Source: a bacterium 1XD8-76 (GTDB lineage: Bacteria; Bacillota; Clostridia; Lachnospirales; Lachnospiraceae). From it: a stretch of 64,000 bases of DNA. This document shows, one piece after another, positions 3,301-12,850 of this stretch (positions are counted from its first letter, which is position 1; each line of letters opens with the position of its first letter). Under the pieces are notes generated by a model. That model was not told the DNA's origin and ran no database searches. It worked only from the letters and a program-made list of their open reading frames with translations. The translations under genes and the position numbers were made by a program. The DNA is taken from assembly GCA_003611955.1 (NCBI GenBank), contig RAZE01000004.1, positions 124,001-188,000 on the forward strand, in the 5' to 3' direction.

Positions 3301-3440
3301 GTTCTTTGCTCCTTCCATTTTTCATTATACCCCCCCGTCCCACAAATGCAAGCCCCCAAAATATAAATGGAATTATCGCCGGGGATATGGTATAATAATT
3401 TGAAAAATTGGTACAGACTATCTTTTGGATATGGAATATT

Positions 3441-4229
3441 ATGAGCCTTCCCGGTGTATACGAAACAAGTTTAAAAGATGGCACGCCTTCCTACCGTGCC
3501 TCTATTACCTGGCAGAAAAAGCATATCAGCCTCGGCAGCTTCCCGGAAGAGAAAGCAGCCCACGCCGCCTATCTTCTGGCGTTTTCTGTTCTCTCGGAAA
3601 AGTCCCGAAAAATTCTTGACTACCGAAATACTTTGCCGCTCTCCTTTGAAAAATGGGTGGTTTTAATCAATCTGCGGGACAACGGACTCTACTTTGCCAC
3701 GCCGATCTATCTGATGAAAAGCTATTTTTTATACTATCTGGAGCCGGAGCTCGAGTTGAAATTTGATATGGAAGATCTGTTTTACTACGCTTCCCACAAG
3801 ATCATGCGCCGGGGAAACCACCTCTTTGTGGCGGACTACGGCATGCAGGTGACGCTTTTCTCCAGGTATGGCATCAAAAATTACGCCGTTCCCGGGAAGG
3901 ATTACCGGTTTATTAACGGCGATCCTTACGATTTTCGATATGAAAATATAGAGATATTGAACACGTACCATGGCGTCTTTCTGACACGGAGAAACGATAA
4001 AGCGATATATCGTGCAAGGATCCATGTCAGGAGCTATTACCTGATCGGTTATTACGACAGCGCCGTGGAGGCCGCTGTCGCTTACAATAAGGCGGTGGAT
4101 ATCATAAAAGAACGTTACCCTGAAAAGAATTATGAACTGAATTATATTGCGGAGTTAAAGGCCTCCGAGTATGCGGCCCTGTATAAGCGGGTGAAGATAT
4201 CCGATAAGATATACCATCTTCCTGTATGA
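3441..4229 (+). CDS. AP2/HNH-like DNA-binding protein, orphan
   Basis: A 262-residue protein. The N-terminal segment (about 5-50, GVYETSLKDGTPSYRASITW with GSFPEEKAAHAAYLLA) and the C-terminal segment (about 190-230, YRARIHVRSYYLIGYYDSA with EAAVAYNKAVD) both resemble the AP2/ERF beta-sheet DNA-binding fold. Between them lies FINGDPYDFRYENIEIL, like the N-x-x-D-x-R-x-x-N-I stretch of HNH homing endonucleases. A full HNH catalytic His pair is not evident, so nuclease activity is doubtful. It stands alone, with no intron or phage context. The start at 3441 is the ATG giving a compact AP2-like N-terminus; an ATG at 3408 is the alternative. Confidence 0.6.
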   Translation: MSLPGVYETSLKDGTPSYRASITWQKKHISLGSFPEEKAAHAAYLLAFSVLSEKSRKILDYRNTLPLSFEKWVVLINLRDNGLYFATPIYLMKSYFLYYLEPELELKFDMEDLFYYASHKIMRRGNHLFVADYGMQVTLFSRYGIKNYAVPGKDYRFINGDPYDFRYENIEILNTYHGVFLTRRNDKAIYRARIHVRSYYLIGYYDSAVEAAVAYNKAVDIIKERYPEKNYELNYIAELKASEYAALYKRVKISDKIYHLPV

Positions 4230-5340: not shown

Positions 5341-6345
5341 TTATCTGATCCTCTCCGGGAATCCTATTTTTTTCTGCACTTTCCGCAGCGTTTTCACGGC
5401 ATAATAGTTTGCCTTTTCCGCATTGTTCTTGATCACGGAATCAATGTAATCCTTATTTTTGCAAAGATCCGCATACCGTTCCTGCAGCGGTCTCAGCACG
5501 TTGACGACAGCTTCGCCCACCGCCGCCTTGAAATCACCGTAGCCTTTTCCGTCAAACTCTCTCTCTATCTCCTCCGGCGTCTTCCCGGTGCAGGCACTGT
5601 AGATATTGATCAGGTTATAGATGCCAGCCTGTTCGGGATTGTAGCGCACCTGCGCCTGGAGATCCGTCACCGCCCGTTTGAACTTCCGCATCACCGTGTC
5701 GGGATCATCCATCAGATAGATGCTGGCATTGGGGTTCTCATCGGATTTCGACATCTTTTTCTCCGGCGCCTGAAGGCTCTTGATGCTGGCACCGGTCTTG
5801 CCGATGTAGGGTTCCGGTATCGCAAACACATCCCCGTAGATCGCGTTGAACCTCTGAGCGATATCTCTTGTGATCTCTAAATGCTGCAGCTGGTCCTTCC
5901 CTACCGGCACCACATCTGTCTGATACAGCAGGATGTCAGCCGCCATCAGCACGGGATAGGTGAACAGTCCGGCATTGATATTGTCGGTATGCTTCGCCGC
6001 CTTGTCCTTGAACTGCGTCATCCGATTCAGTTCGCCCATATAAGTATAACAGTTTAAGATCCAGGACAGTTCGCTGTGCCCGGATACATGGGACTGGTAG
6101 TATATACAGTTTTTCTCCGGATCGAGCCCGGCCGCGATATAGAGCGTTAAAAGACTTCGCGCTCTCTTTCTCAGCTCCGCGGGATCCTGTCTGACTGTGA
6201 TGGAGTGCAGATCCACCACCGAATAAAAGCACTTGTACTCATCGCACAGCGTCACCCAGTTTTTCAGCGCCCCCAGATAATTGCCGAGTGTCAGATTTCC
6301 CGTCGCCTGCATACCGCTGAACAGTATCTTCTTTCCGTCTATCAA
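5341..6345 (-). CDS. trpS: Tryptophanyl-tRNA synthetase
   Basis: A class Ic aminoacyl-tRNA synthetase of 334 residues, which charges tRNA-Trp in the cytoplasm; this is the usual bacterial TrpS length. The HIGH-like signature is TGNLTLGNYLGALKNW and the KMSKS loop is KKMSKSDENPN. The start is a TTG codon at 6345 preceded by a good AAGGAAGG site, because no ATG exists there and TTG ATA GAC encodes the conserved N-terminus. The first 107 bases overlap the 3' end of the DUF5662 gene in another frame. No T-box leader is present. It is followed by the lactonase gene after 13 bases. Confidence 0.96.
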   Translation of the reverse strand: MIDGKKILFSGMQATGNLTLGNYLGALKNWVTLCDEYKCFYSVVDLHSITVRQDPAELRKRARSLLTLYIAAGLDPEKNCIYYQSHVSGHSELSWILNCYTYMGELNRMTQFKDKAAKHTDNINAGLFTYPVLMAADILLYQTDVVPVGKDQLQHLEITRDIAQRFNAIYGDVFAIPEPYIGKTGASIKSLQAPEKKMSKSDENPNASIYLMDDPDTVMRKFKRAVTDLQAQVRYNPEQAGIYNLINIYSACTGKTPEEIEREFDGKGYGDFKAAVGEAVVNVLRPLQERYADLCKNKDYIDSVIKNNAEKANYYAVKTLRKVQKKIGFPERIR

Positions 6346-6910
6346 TTTTTTTGCCTTCCTTTCCTGTCAAATTCTTCCGCTTTTTTAAAAATCTGTATCT
6401 GATATACAGAAATGTTTTCCGCTCTCCTTTTTCCGCCAACATCCGCAAAAGCCGCTCCAGATTCCTTCTCGTGTAGGGGTGAAGCGGCGCAGGATCTTTC
6501 CCCTGCAGATAATATTCCAGAGGACTCTTATCCGTGTAAGTCTCCCCCTGATAAGTCTTACAGGCAGCGATCCTGTCCATGATCATCTCCGCGATATATT
6601 TATCCGGCATCGGACAGGGAAGCATGCCCCCGGGCCCCGCTTTCAGAGAATAATCGATCCAGTATTCGTAGTGATGCTTGTTTCTGCCCTTGTGGTGCAG
6701 CCAGGCGGAAGAATAGCCGATATCCTCCCGCTCTGCGTTGTTGGGGCTTCTTGTTCCCTGATAATATTTTGCACCCACCCAGAATTCGGAAGGACTGTAT
6801 TTGGACAAATCGTGTACCAGCCCCTGCCGGTACAGTCCCACCTGAAAACACCCTTTTCTGACAAGATGCCTGTGATGTGTTATTGTTTTAAAATGTTTCC
6901 AGACATGCAT
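6239..6910 (-). CDS. DUF5662 family protein
   Basis: A 223-residue protein whose first 160 residues match the DUF5662 family of Firmicutes, with the highly conserved HDLSKYSPSEFWVGAKYYQG followed by SPNNAEREDIGYSSAWLHHK and NKHHYEYWIDYS. The many conserved His, Asp and Glu residues suggest a metal-binding hydrolase of HD-like type, but no activity is established. The last 45 or so residues are Lys/Arg-rich low-similarity sequence overlapping the start of trpS by 107 bases; they may be a non-conserved tail. The gene lies 52 bases downstream of the GlgX-like gene and probably belongs to the same transcript. Confidence 0.75.
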   Translation of the reverse strand: MHVWKHFKTITHHRHLVRKGCFQVGLYRQGLVHDLSKYSPSEFWVGAKYYQGTRSPNNAEREDIGYSSAWLHHKGRNKHHYEYWIDYSLKAGPGGMLPCPMPDKYIAEMIMDRIAACKTYQGETYTDKSPLEYYLQGKDPAPLHPYTRRNLERLLRMLAEKGERKTFLYIRYRFLKKRKNLTGKEGKKIDRRKEDTVQRYAGDGKSDTRQLSGGAEKLGDAVR

Positions 6911-6961: not shown

Positions 6962-8914
6962 TTATATCCTGCCGTTTTTTCGCACTTTTGGAGTTTCCTC
7001 CGAAATGTAGATGCGCACACATCTTCCCGGCAGCGTCACAGACTGACCGCTGTCATCCTCTTTTCTGCTCTCTGGTTTTGTCGCCTCCGCAGTGTCGATT
7101 GTCAGATTCCAACGTTTCCCTTTCATAAGCTTCGGCAGCGCGAAGTCATGGGGCTCCCAGTGCATATTGTATGCGATATAGAGACATTCATCCTCCCTGC
7201 CGTCGGTCACACAATATTTTCCGCAGAGCAACACGCCGATACTCCGGGTATGATACTCCATGCTGGTACGCCACGCCTCCTGCCCGTGGTAGGACAGATC
7301 CGGATAGCCGCAGGACAGATAGTCCATCAACCGGAGCTCCTTTCCCTGGTGCATAATGCCGTGCGCCCTCCTGAGAGCAATCAACTGCATCGTAAAGGAG
7401 AGAAGTTCTTTCTCCGTCTTTTTCAGACTCCACTTTTGCCAGGTCACCTCATTGTCCTGACAGTAAGGGTTATTGTTGCCGCCGGAAGTTTTTCCCCATT
7501 CATCCCCCATAAAAAGGAATGGAGTGCCCTGCGCAGTGAACAGCATGATCAGCGCATTTTTCATCAGCTGCGTCCGAAGCGCAAGGACGCTTTTCCTCCT
7601 CGTCTCACCTTCCGCACCGCAGTTCCAGCTGTAATTGACATCCTCTCCGTCCCGGTTTTCCTCACCGTTCGCCTCATTGTGTTTTTCATTGTAGGAAAAC
7701 ACATCCGCAAGACGAAAACCGTTGTAGGTCGCGAGGAAATTGATCCGGCCGTGTCCCTGCGGGTTTTTGCGCTGCATCCGCAGAAACTCTGACAGCACGC
7801 CGCCGTCCCCCTTCAGGAAACGCCGTACGGTATTCTGGTATTCTTTTCCGAAATCGGCAAGACGGCGCGTCTCTCTTATCGGTGTCTTCCTATGACGCTG
7901 GTGTCTGCCGGACTCAGGCAGGCGCGACGCGGCCCTTCTCGCCCGTATCTCCTCAATTTCTTCGTAGGGGAACCATTCGCTCCAGAGCTTGCACTCTGAA
8001 AACGCCGGTTCTAACGCGATATCCCGCAGGGGAAGCTGCGCCCCCATCAATTCAAAACCATCGATATGGTAATTCTTTAGCCAGTATAATAAAATTTCTC
8101 TGATCCGCACCGAAGACATATACGGTTCAAAATAAAACTGCAGGATTACTTCGAGACTGTTTTTGTGGAGCTGACGCACCAGTGTTTTCAGTTCTGTCAC
8201 GGCATCATCGCTGTACGCATACGCATTTTTGGGAGCAAGGTAATACCCTGGGAGATATCCCCAGTAATTGAGGCGTGTCTGAGACTCTCCTGGCAGCTGC
8301 GAAGCCAATGCCTCCGCAGTCCTCACCTCCGTTTTTTTCATACACTCCTCAAATTCATAGACGGGCTGCAGCACAATCCCTGTGATTCCCAGCTTTTTCA
8401 GATAAGGTATTTTTTTCTGAATTCCGGCAAATGTCCCTGCCTCCTTCACTCTGGAAGAAGCGTCTTTCGTAAATCCGCGGACATGCATCCCGTAGTAGAC
8501 GCTGTTCTCATAGGCAGTTTCCGGCTTTTTATCTCCCTGCCAGTTGAACTGATCAGCCACGAATACACATCTCTTCAGGGCGTCCTTTTTCCCCGCAGCC
8601 AGGTGTTCCTCCCCGAAATACCTGTGCCCGGAAAGGCGTTTTGCCAAAAGGTCCGTCACGGGCTTTCCATCCTCATGGAACAGATAGGTGTACTCCCGCA
8701 GGGAACTCCCGGACAAGAGACAGCGGTATGTGCTGCCAAGCTTCATCTCATCCGTGAAGTCAATTCGGACAGGCTCCGCATCCTCCGAATCATACAGAAG
8801 AATACCGTTGCTTTCCTGCCCGTAGAGTTCCGCATGAATGCTGATACCGTCCGCCGTAATGCTGACACCGGTACTCTCCGCCGCCCATTTCTTCAAAGTA
8901 AAGTTTTTATTCAT
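6962..8914 (-). CDS. GlgX/isoamylase-like GH13 protein, probably catalytically inactive
   Basis: A 650-residue protein with the layout of glycogen debranching enzymes: an N-terminal CBM48-like beta domain (about 10-125), a GH13 barrel (about 140-530) and a C-terminal beta domain. It keeps GlgX hallmarks such as SYNEKHNEANGEENRDG and TPFLFMGDEWGKTSGGNNNP. The catalytic positions look lost. The region II nucleophile motif GFRFD is replaced by GFELM, the region IV His-Asp pair is Tyr-Asn (NFLATYNGF), and region I lacks the usual N-H. A Glu in the region III-like segment LWSEWF may remain. It may bind alpha-glucan or regulate without hydrolysing it. It heads the operon with DUF5662, trpS and the lactonase gene. 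If the alignment is wrong it would be a normal debranching enzyme. Confidence 0.8.
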   Translation of the reverse strand: MNKNFTLKKWAAESTGVSITADGISIHAELYGQESNGILLYDSEDAEPVRIDFTDEMKLGSTYRCLLSGSSLREYTYLFHEDGKPVTDLLAKRLSGHRYFGEEHLAAGKKDALKRCVFVADQFNWQGDKKPETAYENSVYYGMHVRGFTKDASSRVKEAGTFAGIQKKIPYLKKLGITGIVLQPVYEFEECMKKTEVRTAEALASQLPGESQTRLNYWGYLPGYYLAPKNAYAYSDDAVTELKTLVRQLHKNSLEVILQFYFEPYMSSVRIREILLYWLKNYHIDGFELMGAQLPLRDIALEPAFSECKLWSEWFPYEEIEEIRARRAASRLPESGRHQRHRKTPIRETRRLADFGKEYQNTVRRFLKGDGGVLSEFLRMQRKNPQGHGRINFLATYNGFRLADVFSYNEKHNEANGEENRDGEDVNYSWNCGAEGETRRKSVLALRTQLMKNALIMLFTAQGTPFLFMGDEWGKTSGGNNNPYCQDNEVTWQKWSLKKTEKELLSFTMQLIALRRAHGIMHQGKELRLMDYLSCGYPDLSYHGQEAWRTSMEYHTRSIGVLLCGKYCVTDGREDECLYIAYNMHWEPHDFALPKLMKGKRWNLTIDTAEATKPESRKEDDSGQSVTLPGRCVRIYISEETPKVRKNGRI

Positions 8915-9114: not shown

Positions 9115-9450
9115 ATGAAAAATGAAAAGCACGAGATCATAACCGAACCCGACAGAAATATGGCCCAGGAGGAAATGACCGTAGATCTCGAACTGGACGA
9201 GGGTACGGTAACCTGTTCCGTTGTCACGATCTTTTCCGTCGGCGAAAAGGATTACATCGCTCTGCTCCCCTTAGATAAAAATAAAGACAATGCGGAGGGC
9301 TCTGTCTGGATCTATGGCTACTCGGAAAATCCGGACGATCCGAATGAAGAACCAATACTGCGTTATATTGAGGACGACGAGGAATATGAACAGGCATCCG
9401 ACGCTTTTGATGAATACCTGGACAGCTGCGAATTCGATGAGATGCTTTGA
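9115..9450 (+). CDS. DUF1292 domain protein
   Basis: A 111-residue acidic protein. The DUF1292 signature is clear: an early TVDLELDEGTVTCSVVTIF beta-hairpin, then KDYIALLPLDK, then VWIYGYSE and ILRYIEDDEEYEQASDAFDE. This small family (related to B. subtilis YrzB) is widespread in Clostridia and Bacilli and has no known function; it is commonly found near alaS/ruvX in relatives, which is not the case here. The start is supported by GAGGGC 5 bases upstream and by its own promoter. It is convergent with the helicase gene, only 23 bases away. Confidence 0.85.
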   Translation: MKNEKHEIITEPDRNMAQEEMTVDLELDEGTVTCSVVTIFSVGEKDYIALLPLDKNKDNAEGSVWIYGYSENPDDPNEEPILRYIEDDEEYEQASDAFDEYLDSCEFDEML

Positions 9451-9473: not shown

Positions 9474-11396
9474 TCAGACGATCTCTTTCAAAAACCTGGA
9501 AGGCGGCATTGTTTTTGATGTGTCGTCTTCTTTTTCTGATTTTTTTTGACAGTCGATATAAAACAAAGCCAGTTCCTTCTTAGCTCTTGTCATCGCCACA
9601 TAAAACATCCGGCGCTCCTCCTCGATCTCCTCCTCGCTTCGGGCTTTCCTGTGTGGTGTGATTCCCTCATTACAGTTTACTATAAAAACTTTATCGTATT
9701 CAAGCCCCTTGGAACCGTGCATGGTCATCAAAGTGACGCTTTCCTTCGGCGCATCATCCTGAAGGCTCAGCTTATGATCCTGCTCCTCTTTCTTTCGCTC
9801 CTCTATCACCGCTTTCCACTGCGAAAGATTTCGGCACCCTTTAGCGGAGTTCTGAATCATATCCGCAAATTCCATGATATTGCCGCTCTCGTCGTCACTG
9901 TGCGCGCCTTTTTCTCCGAACCGCTCCAGAAGCCAGGCATCGTAGCCCATACCTTTGCGGATATAGTTGACTGCCAGAAAGACAGGCATCGCGCGCATCC
10001 TATCCAGATCCTCTTTCAACTTTATCACCGTTTCCTGCATGGCAGGTTTTCCCCGATAAAAGCGGATCAGATGTCCCAAATCAGCGATTTCATTTACTGC
10101 CTCCCTGCTGATATACCGAAGCGGCCTGTTCATAAACCGGAAAAACTGGCTCCTGCTTCTTTCCATCGGAGGCGTCGCACAAAATTCCAGGTAGGCGAAC
10201 AGATCATACACGATTTCATGTTCATAAATGCTCTTCACCTTCTCCCGGAAGCCACAGGGAATCCCTGCCTGGCGAAGCTTCTCAGAGAGAATCGAAAAGC
10301 AGGAGGAAGTTCTGCTGATCACAGCGCAGTCTGCCAATTTTCCTGCCTTCTTTTCCCGCAATAAACTGCGGAACAACTCCTCTTCCATTTTGCTGCTGTG
10401 TTCGAATTTTCCGATGCGGAGAGGCGCTCCGGACTCACCGGCAGAAAGAATCTCCTTGGGAAAGCGATTTCGATTATGTGAGATCAGCTTTCCTGCCGAG
10501 GAGACAACCTGCGGAGTGCTGCGATAGTTTATCTGCAGGGCAACGATTTCGGCATCCGGATAATCCTTTGGAAAATTGCGCATAATATCCGGTTTTGCTC
10601 CTCTAAAACCATAAATAGACTGATCGTCGTCCCCCACAATAAATATATTGTTCTCCGGCGCAGCGAGAAGCTGAATCAGATGATACTGTATGGGGGCGAT
10701 ATCCTGGAATTCGTCGATCAGAAGATAGCGGTATCTCGCCTGATAGCGCTTCAAAATATCCGGTCTTTCCTGAAACAGTTCCCGGCATTTTAACGCCATA
10801 TCATCAAAATCGATTTTTCCCAGAATATCCTTTGTATGTACGAAATCATGGTACAAATTGTGGAACAGTTCCGGGGAAATGTTTTGTGGTATAAAATTTA
10901 TATTTTCATCGGGCTTTTCAAAAGAACTTTCCGAAAAGTTCTGATATCTGCCGATCTCTGCGAGGATCTCTTCCAGCATATCCGCGTTCGGACTGATATC
11001 GTAACTGTTTCTCCGGATAATGTCTCGAAGTATTTTTTTCTTTTCCGCTTCGGATAAGATGCTGCCGGCGCGGCAGCGTGATGTTTCTTTGAGAATCGAA
11101 TAAAAGACGGCGTGGAAAGTGCCGAAAGTCACCGGCGGATGTTCCCCCTCACAGAGTGATAGAAAACGCTGCTGCATTTCTCCCGCCGCTGCTTTTGTGA
11201 AGGTGATCACCAGAATTTCCGATGGATTGATATGATGCGTGTTGATCAGATGGGCGATTCTTCTTGTCAGAACAAAGGTTTTCCCGGAGCCCGGCCCCGC
11301 AAGTACCATCATGGGACCGGCTCCGTGTGTGATCGCCTTTTTCTGCTGCGGATTGCCCGCACTGTCCGGCTTGCGGGACAGGGAATACTGTGTCAG
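9474..11396 (-). CDS. UvrD/PcrA-like superfamily 1 DNA helicase
   Basis: An ATP-dependent 3'-5' DNA helicase of the UvrD/Rep class, about 640 residues. Motifs in order are Q-motif NPQQKKAI, Walker A GPGSGKT, motif [15 protein letters not shown], motif [16 protein letters not shown], motif IV QINYRST, motif [16 protein letters not shown] and motif [17 protein letters not shown]. The first ATG (11312) would cut off the Q-motif. The frame is open upstream, and a CTG at 11396 overlaps the gltX stop codon as CTGA, suggesting a coupled non-AUG start; this start is inferred. The protein is shorter than UvrD (about 720-740), lacking part of domain 2B. It probably acts in repair or replication restart. 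Confidence 0.88.
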
Positions 11397-12850
11397 GATA
11401 ACGCCTGCGTCAGAAGCTCTATCCCCGCTTTGATCCGGGACAAAGATTCTTCCTTTCCGAGAATTTCCATGATTTCCGTAGCGCCCGCCGGCGTCATCTG
11501 CCTGCCGGAAACCGCAGTGCGGACCGGCCAGAGTACATAGCCGTTCTTGCTGCCTTTCTTTGCCGCGAAATCACAGAGTGTCTGATACAGCGCATCATTG
11601 CTGTAATCTTCCTGTTTTTCCAGAACAGGAAGGAGTTCTTTCAATACTTCCAGGGAAGACTCCGCCGTGGTCTTCATCTTCTTGTGGGTATACATCGCCG
11701 GATCGTACTCCGGCAGCGCCTCAAAAAAGTCGACCAGCGCCGGAATATCCGGGAATACCTCGATCCTCGTCTTCACCATCTCCGCCATCTTTTTCAGGTC
11801 AAGCGGCTTCTTGATGGTTTCTTTCAAAAACGGCTCCGCCATCTCATAAAACCGGTCAAAGTCCATCTGCTTGATGTACTCGCCGTTCATCCATTTTAAC
11901 TTTGTATAGTCGAATACCGCCGGGGATTTGGACATATGACGGTAGTCAAAGGCTTCCGTCAGTTCCTTTAAGGTAAAGATCTCCCGATTGTCCGAAGGGC
12001 TCCATCCCAGAAGCGCTACAAAGTTCACGACCGCCTCCGTCAGAAATCCCTGCTCGATCAGATCCTCGTAGGAAGAATGCCCGCAGCGCTTGGACAGCTT
12101 GTTGTGCTCCTCATCCGTGATCAGCGGACAGTGTACGTACACAGGCACCTCCCAGCCGAAGGCTTCATAGAGCCTGTTGTACTTCGGGGAGGACGAAAGA
12201 TATTCATTTCCCCGCACCACATGGGTGATGCCCATCAGATGGTCGTCCACCACATTGGCGAAATTGTAGGTGGGATAGCCATCGGATTTGATCAGGATCA
12301 TATCGTCGAGCTCCGCGTTTTCCACCGCGATATCCCCGTAGATCTCATCATGGAAAACGGTCCTCCCGTCTGTGGGATTGTTCTGCCTGATCACATAGGG
12401 AACTCCCGCCGCAAGCTTTTTTTCCACTTCCTCTCTGCCAAGGGAGAGGCAGTGCTTGTCATAAACGTTGATCTCCTTGCCTGCCACAATTCTTGTCAGC
12501 CCGGCCAGCCGTTCTTTATCGCAGAAACAATAGTATGCTTCGCCCTTTTCCACCAGCTTTTTCGCATATTCCAGATAGAGTCCGCTCTTTTGCCGTTCAC
12601 TCTGCACATAGGGACCGACGCCCCTGTCCTTGTCCGGTCCCTCATCGTGGACAAGACCGGTCTTCTGCAATGTCCTGTAGATAATATCCACAGCGCCCTC
12701 CACCAGACGCTCCTGGTCGGTGTCCTCGATGCGGAGAATAAAATCCCCGCCCTCGTGCTTGGCGATCAGATAGGCGTACAGCGCCGTCCTCAGATTTCCC
12801 ACATGCATCCGCCCTGTGGGGCTTGGTGCAAATCTTGTTCTTATTTTCAT
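11393..12850 (-). CDS. gltX: Glutamyl-tRNA synthetase
   Basis: A class Ib synthetase of 485 residues that charges tRNA-Glu. The N-terminal ATP-binding signature is [20 protein letters not shown], followed by [14 protein letters not shown]. The KMSKS-like loop is [12 protein letters not shown], and ARGNEYL-type [15 protein letters not shown] lies between them. The C-terminal anticodon-binding helical domain is intact. In most Firmicutes this enzyme also mischarges tRNA-Gln for the GatCAB route; whether that holds here depends on glnS, not seen in the window. The gene overlaps the helicase start by 4 bases if the helicase begins at CTG. Confidence 0.96.

Follow-up and report, generated by a model that had tools for sequence, protein, structure and literature searches.

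The Locus

The window analysed here, a 64-kb stretch of DNA taken in full, carries a gene for a homologue of GlgX and the isoamylases in which most of the catalytic residues have been replaced (Table 1). Genes for a DUF5662 protein and a tryptophanyl-tRNA synthetase follow it on the same strand, while its upstream side is occupied by a divergent DUF1292 gene and, further out, by genes for a UvrD-like helicase and a glutamyl-tRNA synthetase. Some of these names are assumptions on our part: trpS is taken over from an earlier, sequence-only reading of this DNA, and the helicase and gltX genes are presumably what they resemble. No conserved RNA reached the Rfam gathering score anywhere in the window, and scans for promoters (6 found, 6.5 expected) and terminators (7 found, 4.3 expected) were uninformative.

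Table 1. Features of the locus, in window coordinates; residue numbers refer to the GlgX/isoamylase homologue
Feature	Position	Strand	Basis or remark
Tryptophanyl-tRNA synthetase gene (presumed trpS)	5341..6345	(-)	overlaps DUF5662 ORF by 107 nt
DUF5662 gene, frequent neighbour in the clade	6239..6910	(-)	family match; model weakly HD-domain-like; 51 nt downstream of the homologue gene
Non-catalytic GlgX/isoamylase homologue gene	6962..8914	(-)	650 aa, ATG start; predicted N-terminal beta-sandwich, barrel, C-terminal beta-sandwich
Loop GGNNNPYCQDN, residues 478-488; Asn482 = GlgX Asn534, Tyr484 = GlgX Tyr536	7451..7483	(-)	alignment, with contacts from PMC9530166; low model confidence
Basic cluster RRK, residues 439-441, gained in the clade	7592..7600	(-)	alignment
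Isoamylase loop SYNEKHNEANGEENRDG, residues 407-423; contains Glu418 = GlgX Glu470 (distal contact)	7646..7696	(-)	alignment, with contact from PMC9530166
Region IV position, residues 397-398, Tyr-Asn (canonical His-Asp)	7721..7726	(-)	alignment
Glu313, aligned on region III acid/base Glu; unconserved in the clade (18/85)	7976..7978	(-)	alignments
Region II position, residues 286-290, GFELM (canonical GFRFD); Met290 replaces the nucleophile Asp	8045..8059	(-)	alignment
Region I position, residues 259-264, QFYFEP (canonical DVVxNH)	8123..8140	(-)	alignments
Trp218 = S. venezuelae GlgX Trp222 (-1 sugar contact), kept 85/85	8261..8263	(-)	PDB alignment and PMC9530166
DUF1292 gene, divergent neighbour	9115..9450	(+)	family match
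UvrD-like helicase gene (presumed), syntenic upstream neighbour	9474..11312	(-)	
Glutamyl-tRNA synthetase gene (presumed gltX), syntenic upstream neighbour	11393..12850	(-)	

Family Membership and Fold

The kinship with GlgX that the sequence-only reading had claimed is borne out by sequence searches of several kinds. The protein matches NCBIfam TIGR02100 at E 1e-86 (291.6 bits, below the curated cut-off of 640.9) and Pfam Alpha-amylase at 5.9e-11, and its closest sequences in the PDB are Streptomyces GlgX (7u39) and plant ISA1, with ISA2 lower. TIGR02100 is likewise matched at E 1e-30 or better by all 41 clade members scanned; the best of these E-values, 8.7e-104, corresponds to an estimated 350 bits or so, and thus no scanned member should reach the cut-off. 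Two isoamylase loops, SYNEKHNEANGE and GNNNxYCQDN, are both present, as in members of GH13_11. Pfam CBM_48 leaves the window protein unmatched, though its N-domain aligns structurally with those of isoamylases, and the CBM48 signature is found in 5 of 41 clade members versus 23 of 23 canonical proteins.

An AlphaFold2 model built from 27 sequences (pLDDT 82.5, pTM 0.87) finds its best Foldseek match in a chain of the rice ISA1-ISA2 complex (TMq 0.74), and VIA returns Z scores of 36.3 to Arabidopsis ISA1 (9xvg_A; 538 residues aligned, 2.5 A), 35.4 to GlgX and 29.5 to ISA2. The isoamylase arrangement of N-domain, barrel and C-domain is therefore predicted by the model to be intact overall. Because the model alignments to GlgX, TreX and ISA1 begin at residues 1-7 (one at 15), the 650 residues leave no room for an extra N-terminal domain. 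Two loops, 431-434 and 477-490, have pLDDT below 50, and as these lie near or include retained sugar contacts, the geometry of those contacts is of low confidence in the model.

Origin of the Clade and Selection

Orthologues were read from a set of 110 proteins, made up of the best 30 from genomes of the family and the best 80 of 598 candidate stretches, which were divided by the GFRFD motif into 85 without it (here called the pseudo form) and 25 with it (canonical GlgX). The 85 are diverse, with a single pair above 90% identity and a median pairwise identity of 0.38. Three sets were drawn from these proteins: A1 from 27 of 30 loci (L019, L027 and L035, which carry long extensions, were omitted), A2 from 23 of the 25 canonical sequences and A3 from 41 of the 85 pseudo forms. 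A quick IQ-TREE tree of 35 randomly chosen pseudo forms, all 25 canonical proteins and 3 outgroup sequences places the 35 in one clade apart from every canonical protein (SH-aLRT 98; stem 0.59), with a root that is not firm owing to long outgroup branches. On the aligned sequences, the pseudo clade appears to have had a single origin, in one bacterial family, which the named loci indicate to be the Lachnospiraceae.

Selection on the gene is purifying. Against the nearest orthologue dN is 0.016 and dS 0.072 (dN/dS about 0.22); for five further orthologues dN lies at 0.17-0.22 and dS at 1.5-2.7, and in one case dS is undefined.

Loss of the Catalytic Site

The three motif changes named in the sequence-only reading, GFELM, Tyr-Asn and a region I without N-H, were all found where the alignments place regions II, IV and I. 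That reading had also taken SYNEKHNEANGEENRDG for a family-specific tail, which was mistaken, since this segment comes shortly after the region IV position. Region III, absent from the earlier account, can now be added: two alignments place Glu313 (in KLWSEWF) on the acid/base Glu of KLIAEAW. Where GH13 enzymes have the triad Asp-Glu-Asp, the window protein thus reads Met290, Glu313 and Asn398, which does not place it among the enzymes.

The loss extends through the clade. In a survey of orthologues, one of the checks that had been proposed for the original claim, the nucleophile Asp appeared in none of the 85 pseudo forms, and neither did the region I His (the His271 equivalent). Other catalytic positions are kept in a minority: the region II Arg in 16, the acid/base Glu in 18, and the region IV His and the stabiliser Asp in 20 each. 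No sequence has more than two of the triad residues, 50 have none at all, and the acid/base Glu and stabiliser Asp positions are kept together in only 3. The loop between regions I and II measures 22-23 residues in the 85, versus 67-68 in canonical GlgX, so that the claim that the protein was kept at full length very nearly holds, the exception being this one barrel loop, shorter by 44-46 residues. An alignment-free search for the patterns G-[FIVLM]-[RK]-[FIVLM]-[DE] and D-x-V-x-N-H found both in 25 of 25 canonical proteins and in 0 of 85 orthologues, the zero for the first pattern being partly by construction because the groups were divided by GFRFD. The 25 GFRFD-bearing proteins also carry the remaining motifs, save one with a gap at region IV. 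Chance is excluded as a cause of the motif losses, judging from this search.

By its sequence, then, the protein is a GH13_11 (GlgX/isoamylase) homologue with a dead catalytic site. The proposal that it is a pseudo-enzyme is well supported by the clade-wide loss, by purifying selection and by the presence of one copy in 120 of 150 sampled genera (see below). A single decayed gene was considered and rejected, because not one of the 85 orthologues retains the nucleophile or the region I His, and dN is much smaller than dS. Migration of the catalytic residues was likewise considered; the only new acidic residues specific to the clade are Asp531 and Asp539, both beyond the barrel segment and towards the C-terminal domain.

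Retained Sugar Contacts and Gained Residues

PMC9530166 gives two sets of contacts between S. venezuelae GlgX and acarbose: Trp222, Tyr224, His271, Asp342, Glu378, Trp380 and His449 for the -1 sugar, and Arg212, Glu470, Asn534 and Tyr536 for the other, distal sugars. These were mapped onto the clade through the PDB alignment, in which the chain numbering runs 3 ahead of that in the paper (an offset that was deduced and is consistent for seven residues). Among the -1 contacts, besides the invariant Trp222 equivalent, Tyr224 is kept in 69 of 85 orthologues (Phe in the other 16) and Trp380 in 16, and the equivalents of His271 and Asp342 are kept in none. As for the distal contacts, the Asn534 equivalent is kept in 85 of 85 and the Tyr536 equivalent in 83, both being fixed in the 25 canonical proteins, and the Glu470 equivalent is Glu in 84 of 85 versus 12 of 25 in the canonical set, where the other 13 have Trp. 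Arg212, another distal contact, is not kept among the 85. A basic residue at position 214, present in 67 of 85 clade members versus 1 of 25 canonical proteins, may stand in for it.

Retention along the chain was gauged from columns in which at least 24 of the 25 canonical proteins agree, each scored as retained where 90% or more of the clade keeps it, with approximate segment borders. By this measure the N-domain keeps 3 of its 20 such columns and strands 1-3 keep 18 of 39. The stretch that runs from the region I loop to strand 6 keeps 4 of 51, whereas strands 7-8 keep 34 of 48 and the C-terminal part 4 of 5; a further 30 columns coincide with gaps in the window protein and count as lost. Erosion has therefore been uneven: the cutting side is gone and the chain-holding side has mostly stayed.

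The clade has also acquired conserved residues of its own, namely Tyr186, Tyr225, Gln462, Asp531, Asp539, Tyr567 and the basic cluster at 439-441. Within the cluster, position 439 is basic in 77 of 85 sequences and position 440 in 81, the latter being Asp in 22 and Asn in 3 of the 25 canonical proteins.

Distribution

The family was surveyed in 150 Lachnospiraceae genomes, one per genus, with profile A3 for the pseudo form and profile A2 for canonical GlgX. The pseudo form was matched, in single copy each time, in 120 of the 150, a lower bound given that genes which are broken or cut short may fall below the A3 threshold (four genomes matched in another search, G114, G130, G145 and G147, are not among the 120). 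Its motifs were read in 30 of these genomes, the remaining 90 being classed by profile score and an undivided match. Among the 125 genomes with completeness of at least 90% and contamination of at most 5%, 101 have it. Canonical GlgX was matched in 45 of the 150, likewise a lower bound, some of the genomes being incomplete. Both forms occur together in 41 genera; 79 have just the pseudo form, 4 just GlgX and 26 neither. Type I pullulanase turned up in 37 of the 150, and 58 of the 120 pseudo-form genomes, that of the window included, yielded neither GlgX nor type I pullulanase.

In the genome of the window, profile searches found no canonical GlgX and no type I pullulanase. Its glycogen genes comprise glgA, two glgC-type matches and two glgB, and its other GH13 proteins are two trehalose-6-phosphate-hydrolase-like, two TreS-like and two maltodextrin-glucosidase-like enzymes. 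Co-occurrence of the pseudo form with glgA and glgC proves nothing, since nearly all sampled genomes carry both (146 and 147 of 150, respectively). GlgX is slightly commoner beside the pseudo form, at 41 of 120 genomes versus 4 of 30 without it (Fisher p 0.027, uncorrected for kinship), and in the same 150 genera, again uncorrected for kinship, neither PulA (p 0.81) nor the presence of either debranching enzyme (p 0.16) shows co-occurrence with it.

Sampling was also widened, in overlapping sets, to 246 genomes of the order, 291 of the class and 398 of the phylum, and full-length matches were found only within the Lachnospiraceae; these searches and those of the family (pseudo form, GlgX, glgA and glgC) scored part of each genome's first-look candidates. 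Eight genomes outside the family were matched over no more than positions 263-616, in reading frames 676-752 aa long, which is the pattern of canonical GlgX. Within the genus of the window the gene is present in 8 of 9 genomes, its own included. In a plasmid collection 468 records matched, and the 8 matches listed all carry the annotation glgX.

Gene Neighbourhood

Neighbours were counted at the named pseudo-form loci with enough flanking sequence. A DUF5662 gene lies within 1.5 kb downstream on the same strand in 31 of 49 loci, and in nine loci the two genes share 4 nt. Upstream, gltX is found in 21 of 45 loci and the UvrD-like helicase in 22 of 48; DUF1292 is nearby in 16 of 52 and trpS in 10 of 47. 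Around canonical GlgX the same genes were not encountered (gltX 0/17, helicase 0/21, DUF1292 0/24, DUF5662 0/21, trpS 0/15). The context is thus partly shared, in half of the loci or fewer for every gene except DUF5662, and of the operon with DUF5662 and trpS that had been suggested from the window alone, the DUF5662 part is borne out and the trpS part finds few parallels. No glycogen gene was seen among the recurrent neighbours, those recognised being tRNA-synthetase, helicase, DUF1292, DUF5662 and TraX-like genes.

The DUF5662 reading frame of the window runs into trpS in another frame (6239-6345) and encodes 223 aa, versus mostly about 177-212 aa in its orthologues; the C-terminal extension may stem from a recent stop loss. 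Its conserved His and Asp residues are H6, H13, H33-D34, H72-H73, H79-H80, D86 and D112. Foldseek found no match to its model at E 0.001, and VIA matched HD domains with Z no higher than 6.7, short of what that tool counts as telling; as far as the model goes, the protein is possibly a metal-dependent hydrolase of the HD-type phosphohydrolase kind.

Ten loci, L062, L066, L069, L070, L074 and L077 among them, have just downstream of the pseudo gene a gene for what we take, from its sequence, to be a TraX-like membrane protein. At L062, L070, L074 and L077 the DUF5662 gene comes after it, 569-780 nt downstream of the pseudo gene. A family of proteins of about 160-185 aa is encoded downstream of the pseudo gene at L058, L060, L067, L071, L082 and L088, where no DUF5662 gene was found. 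Elsewhere in the window, the ORF at 3408-4229 has weak matches to AP2 (0.0019) and HNH (0.14), and presumably resembles homing-type proteins of the AP2/HNH kind.

Proposed Function

The cutting machinery has been lost, yet most sampled genera keep one copy of the gene, and the protein therefore probably holds or senses glycogen. The reading we favour, with a probability of roughly 0.6, is that this inactive GH13_11 homologue, kept across its clade, binds the cell's own glycogen without cutting it, in the manner of ISA2 but with no need of a GlgX partner. Alpha-glucan chains would lie uncut in the remaining half of the cleft, held by Trp218, Glu418, Asn482 and Tyr484, and the bound protein would act as a sensor, a chain protector or an adaptor that tunes the enzymes of glycogen metabolism, perhaps by way of the basic patch acquired in the clade. 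A glucan-binding role is suggested by the retention of most distal contacts despite the loss of the nucleophile and the region I His. Several observations speak against it: Arg212 is lost, Glu470 is not fixed even in canonical GlgX (12/25), the CBM48 signature is eroded, Trp380 and Tyr224 are only partly kept, and the recurrent neighbours recognised include no glycogen gene.

Some of the same facts would fit a protein that has left glycogen metabolism altogether, its conserved loops binding a protein partner or a non-glucan ligand as a scaffold. The gain of the basic cluster, the eroded CBM48 signature and recurrent neighbours that are not glycogen genes all favour such a role, and the loops of low pLDDT may owe their conservation to folding or to a partner instead. 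That said, a change of ligand should have relaxed the distal-sugar contacts, most of which are kept, and we regard the scaffold as unlikely, if deserving of attention. The frequent DUF5662 neighbour invites a different proposal, a two-gene module in which that protein, possibly an HD-type phosphohydrolase, reads out the state of the bound glucan or ligand. Its proximity in 31 of 49 pseudo loci versus 0 of 21 for canonical GlgX, the nine 4-nt overlaps and the weak HD-domain resemblance (best Z 6.7) point this way, but the gene is absent within 1.5 kb in 18 of 49 loci, Foldseek was without a match at E 0.001, and plain vertical inheritance could explain the shared order, all of which makes the module improbable.

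The sequence-only reading had also offered the term "subunit". As a partner of GlgX this finds no support in the survey: of the 120 genomes that carry the gene, 79, including that of the window, yielded no canonical GlgX and 58 yielded neither GlgX nor type I pullulanase; in the window's genome a GlgX complex would need a missed copy. A non-catalytic subunit in a heteromer with active GlgX would parallel ISA2 in fold and in mode of loss, and would accord with the slight excess of GlgX beside the gene (41/120 versus 4/30, p 0.027, kinship uncorrected), yet given these absences we think it distinctly improbable. Remaining or relocated catalysis, in which other residues would support slow hydrolysis or transfer, could appeal to Glu313 in the window protein and to the 3 of 85 sequences with both the acid/base Glu and stabiliser Asp positions kept, but with an Asp nucleophile in none of the 85, and with Asp531 and Asp539 outside the barrel segment, it is very improbable indeed.

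Beyond the protein itself, the stand-alone, glycogen-binding counterpart of ISA2 might regulate storage in gut bacteria across the whole family, a tentative proposal to which we would not quite give even odds. If it were true, a glycogen-binding pseudoenzyme would be commoner in the sampled family than the enzyme it resembles (120 versus 45 of 150), and many such gut bacteria would be without a found debranching enzyme of the isoamylase or type I pullulanase kind.

Comparison with Known Systems

Canonical GlgX and TreX share with the window protein a predicted fold over 520-557 aligned residues, the isoamylase loops and most distal sugar contacts; unlike them, the window protein belongs to a clade of its own, lacking the nucleophile and the region I His and having the shorter barrel loop. 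By analogy, plant ISA2 is the nearest model. According to PMC12510319, ISA2 is non-catalytic and kept by selection; at least four of five conserved residues vary in it, the nucleophile doing so in every ISA2 examined, and its removal alters glucan structure. It is thus a non-catalytic GH13_11 paralogue with the nucleophile replaced, like the window protein. The differences are that ISA2 pairs with ISA1 and carries a further beta-sandwich domain at its N-terminus, whereas the window protein has no such domain and a shorter barrel loop, and an active GlgX was found beside proteins of its type in only 41 of 120 genomes. GlgD, which accompanies the catalytic GlgC according to PMC10395257, shows that a partner subunit has already been described in glycogen metabolism, though at a different step.

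Non-catalytic isoamylases are known from plants; no report of a bacterial clade of them was found in the open-licence literature searched. The present clade, a bacterial instance independent of the plant one, bears on the ISA2 puzzle, the long retention of a non-catalytic isoamylase, in organisms far simpler than plants, and raises the question of how branches are opened in the 58 genomes without a found GlgX or type I pullulanase. Homology-based surveys of glgX may count the inactive clade as a debranching enzyme, and glycogen breakdown in Lachnospiraceae may consequently be misannotated. Blautia obeum, for one, has two glgX homologues according to PMC10395257, one of which may belong to the pseudo clade.
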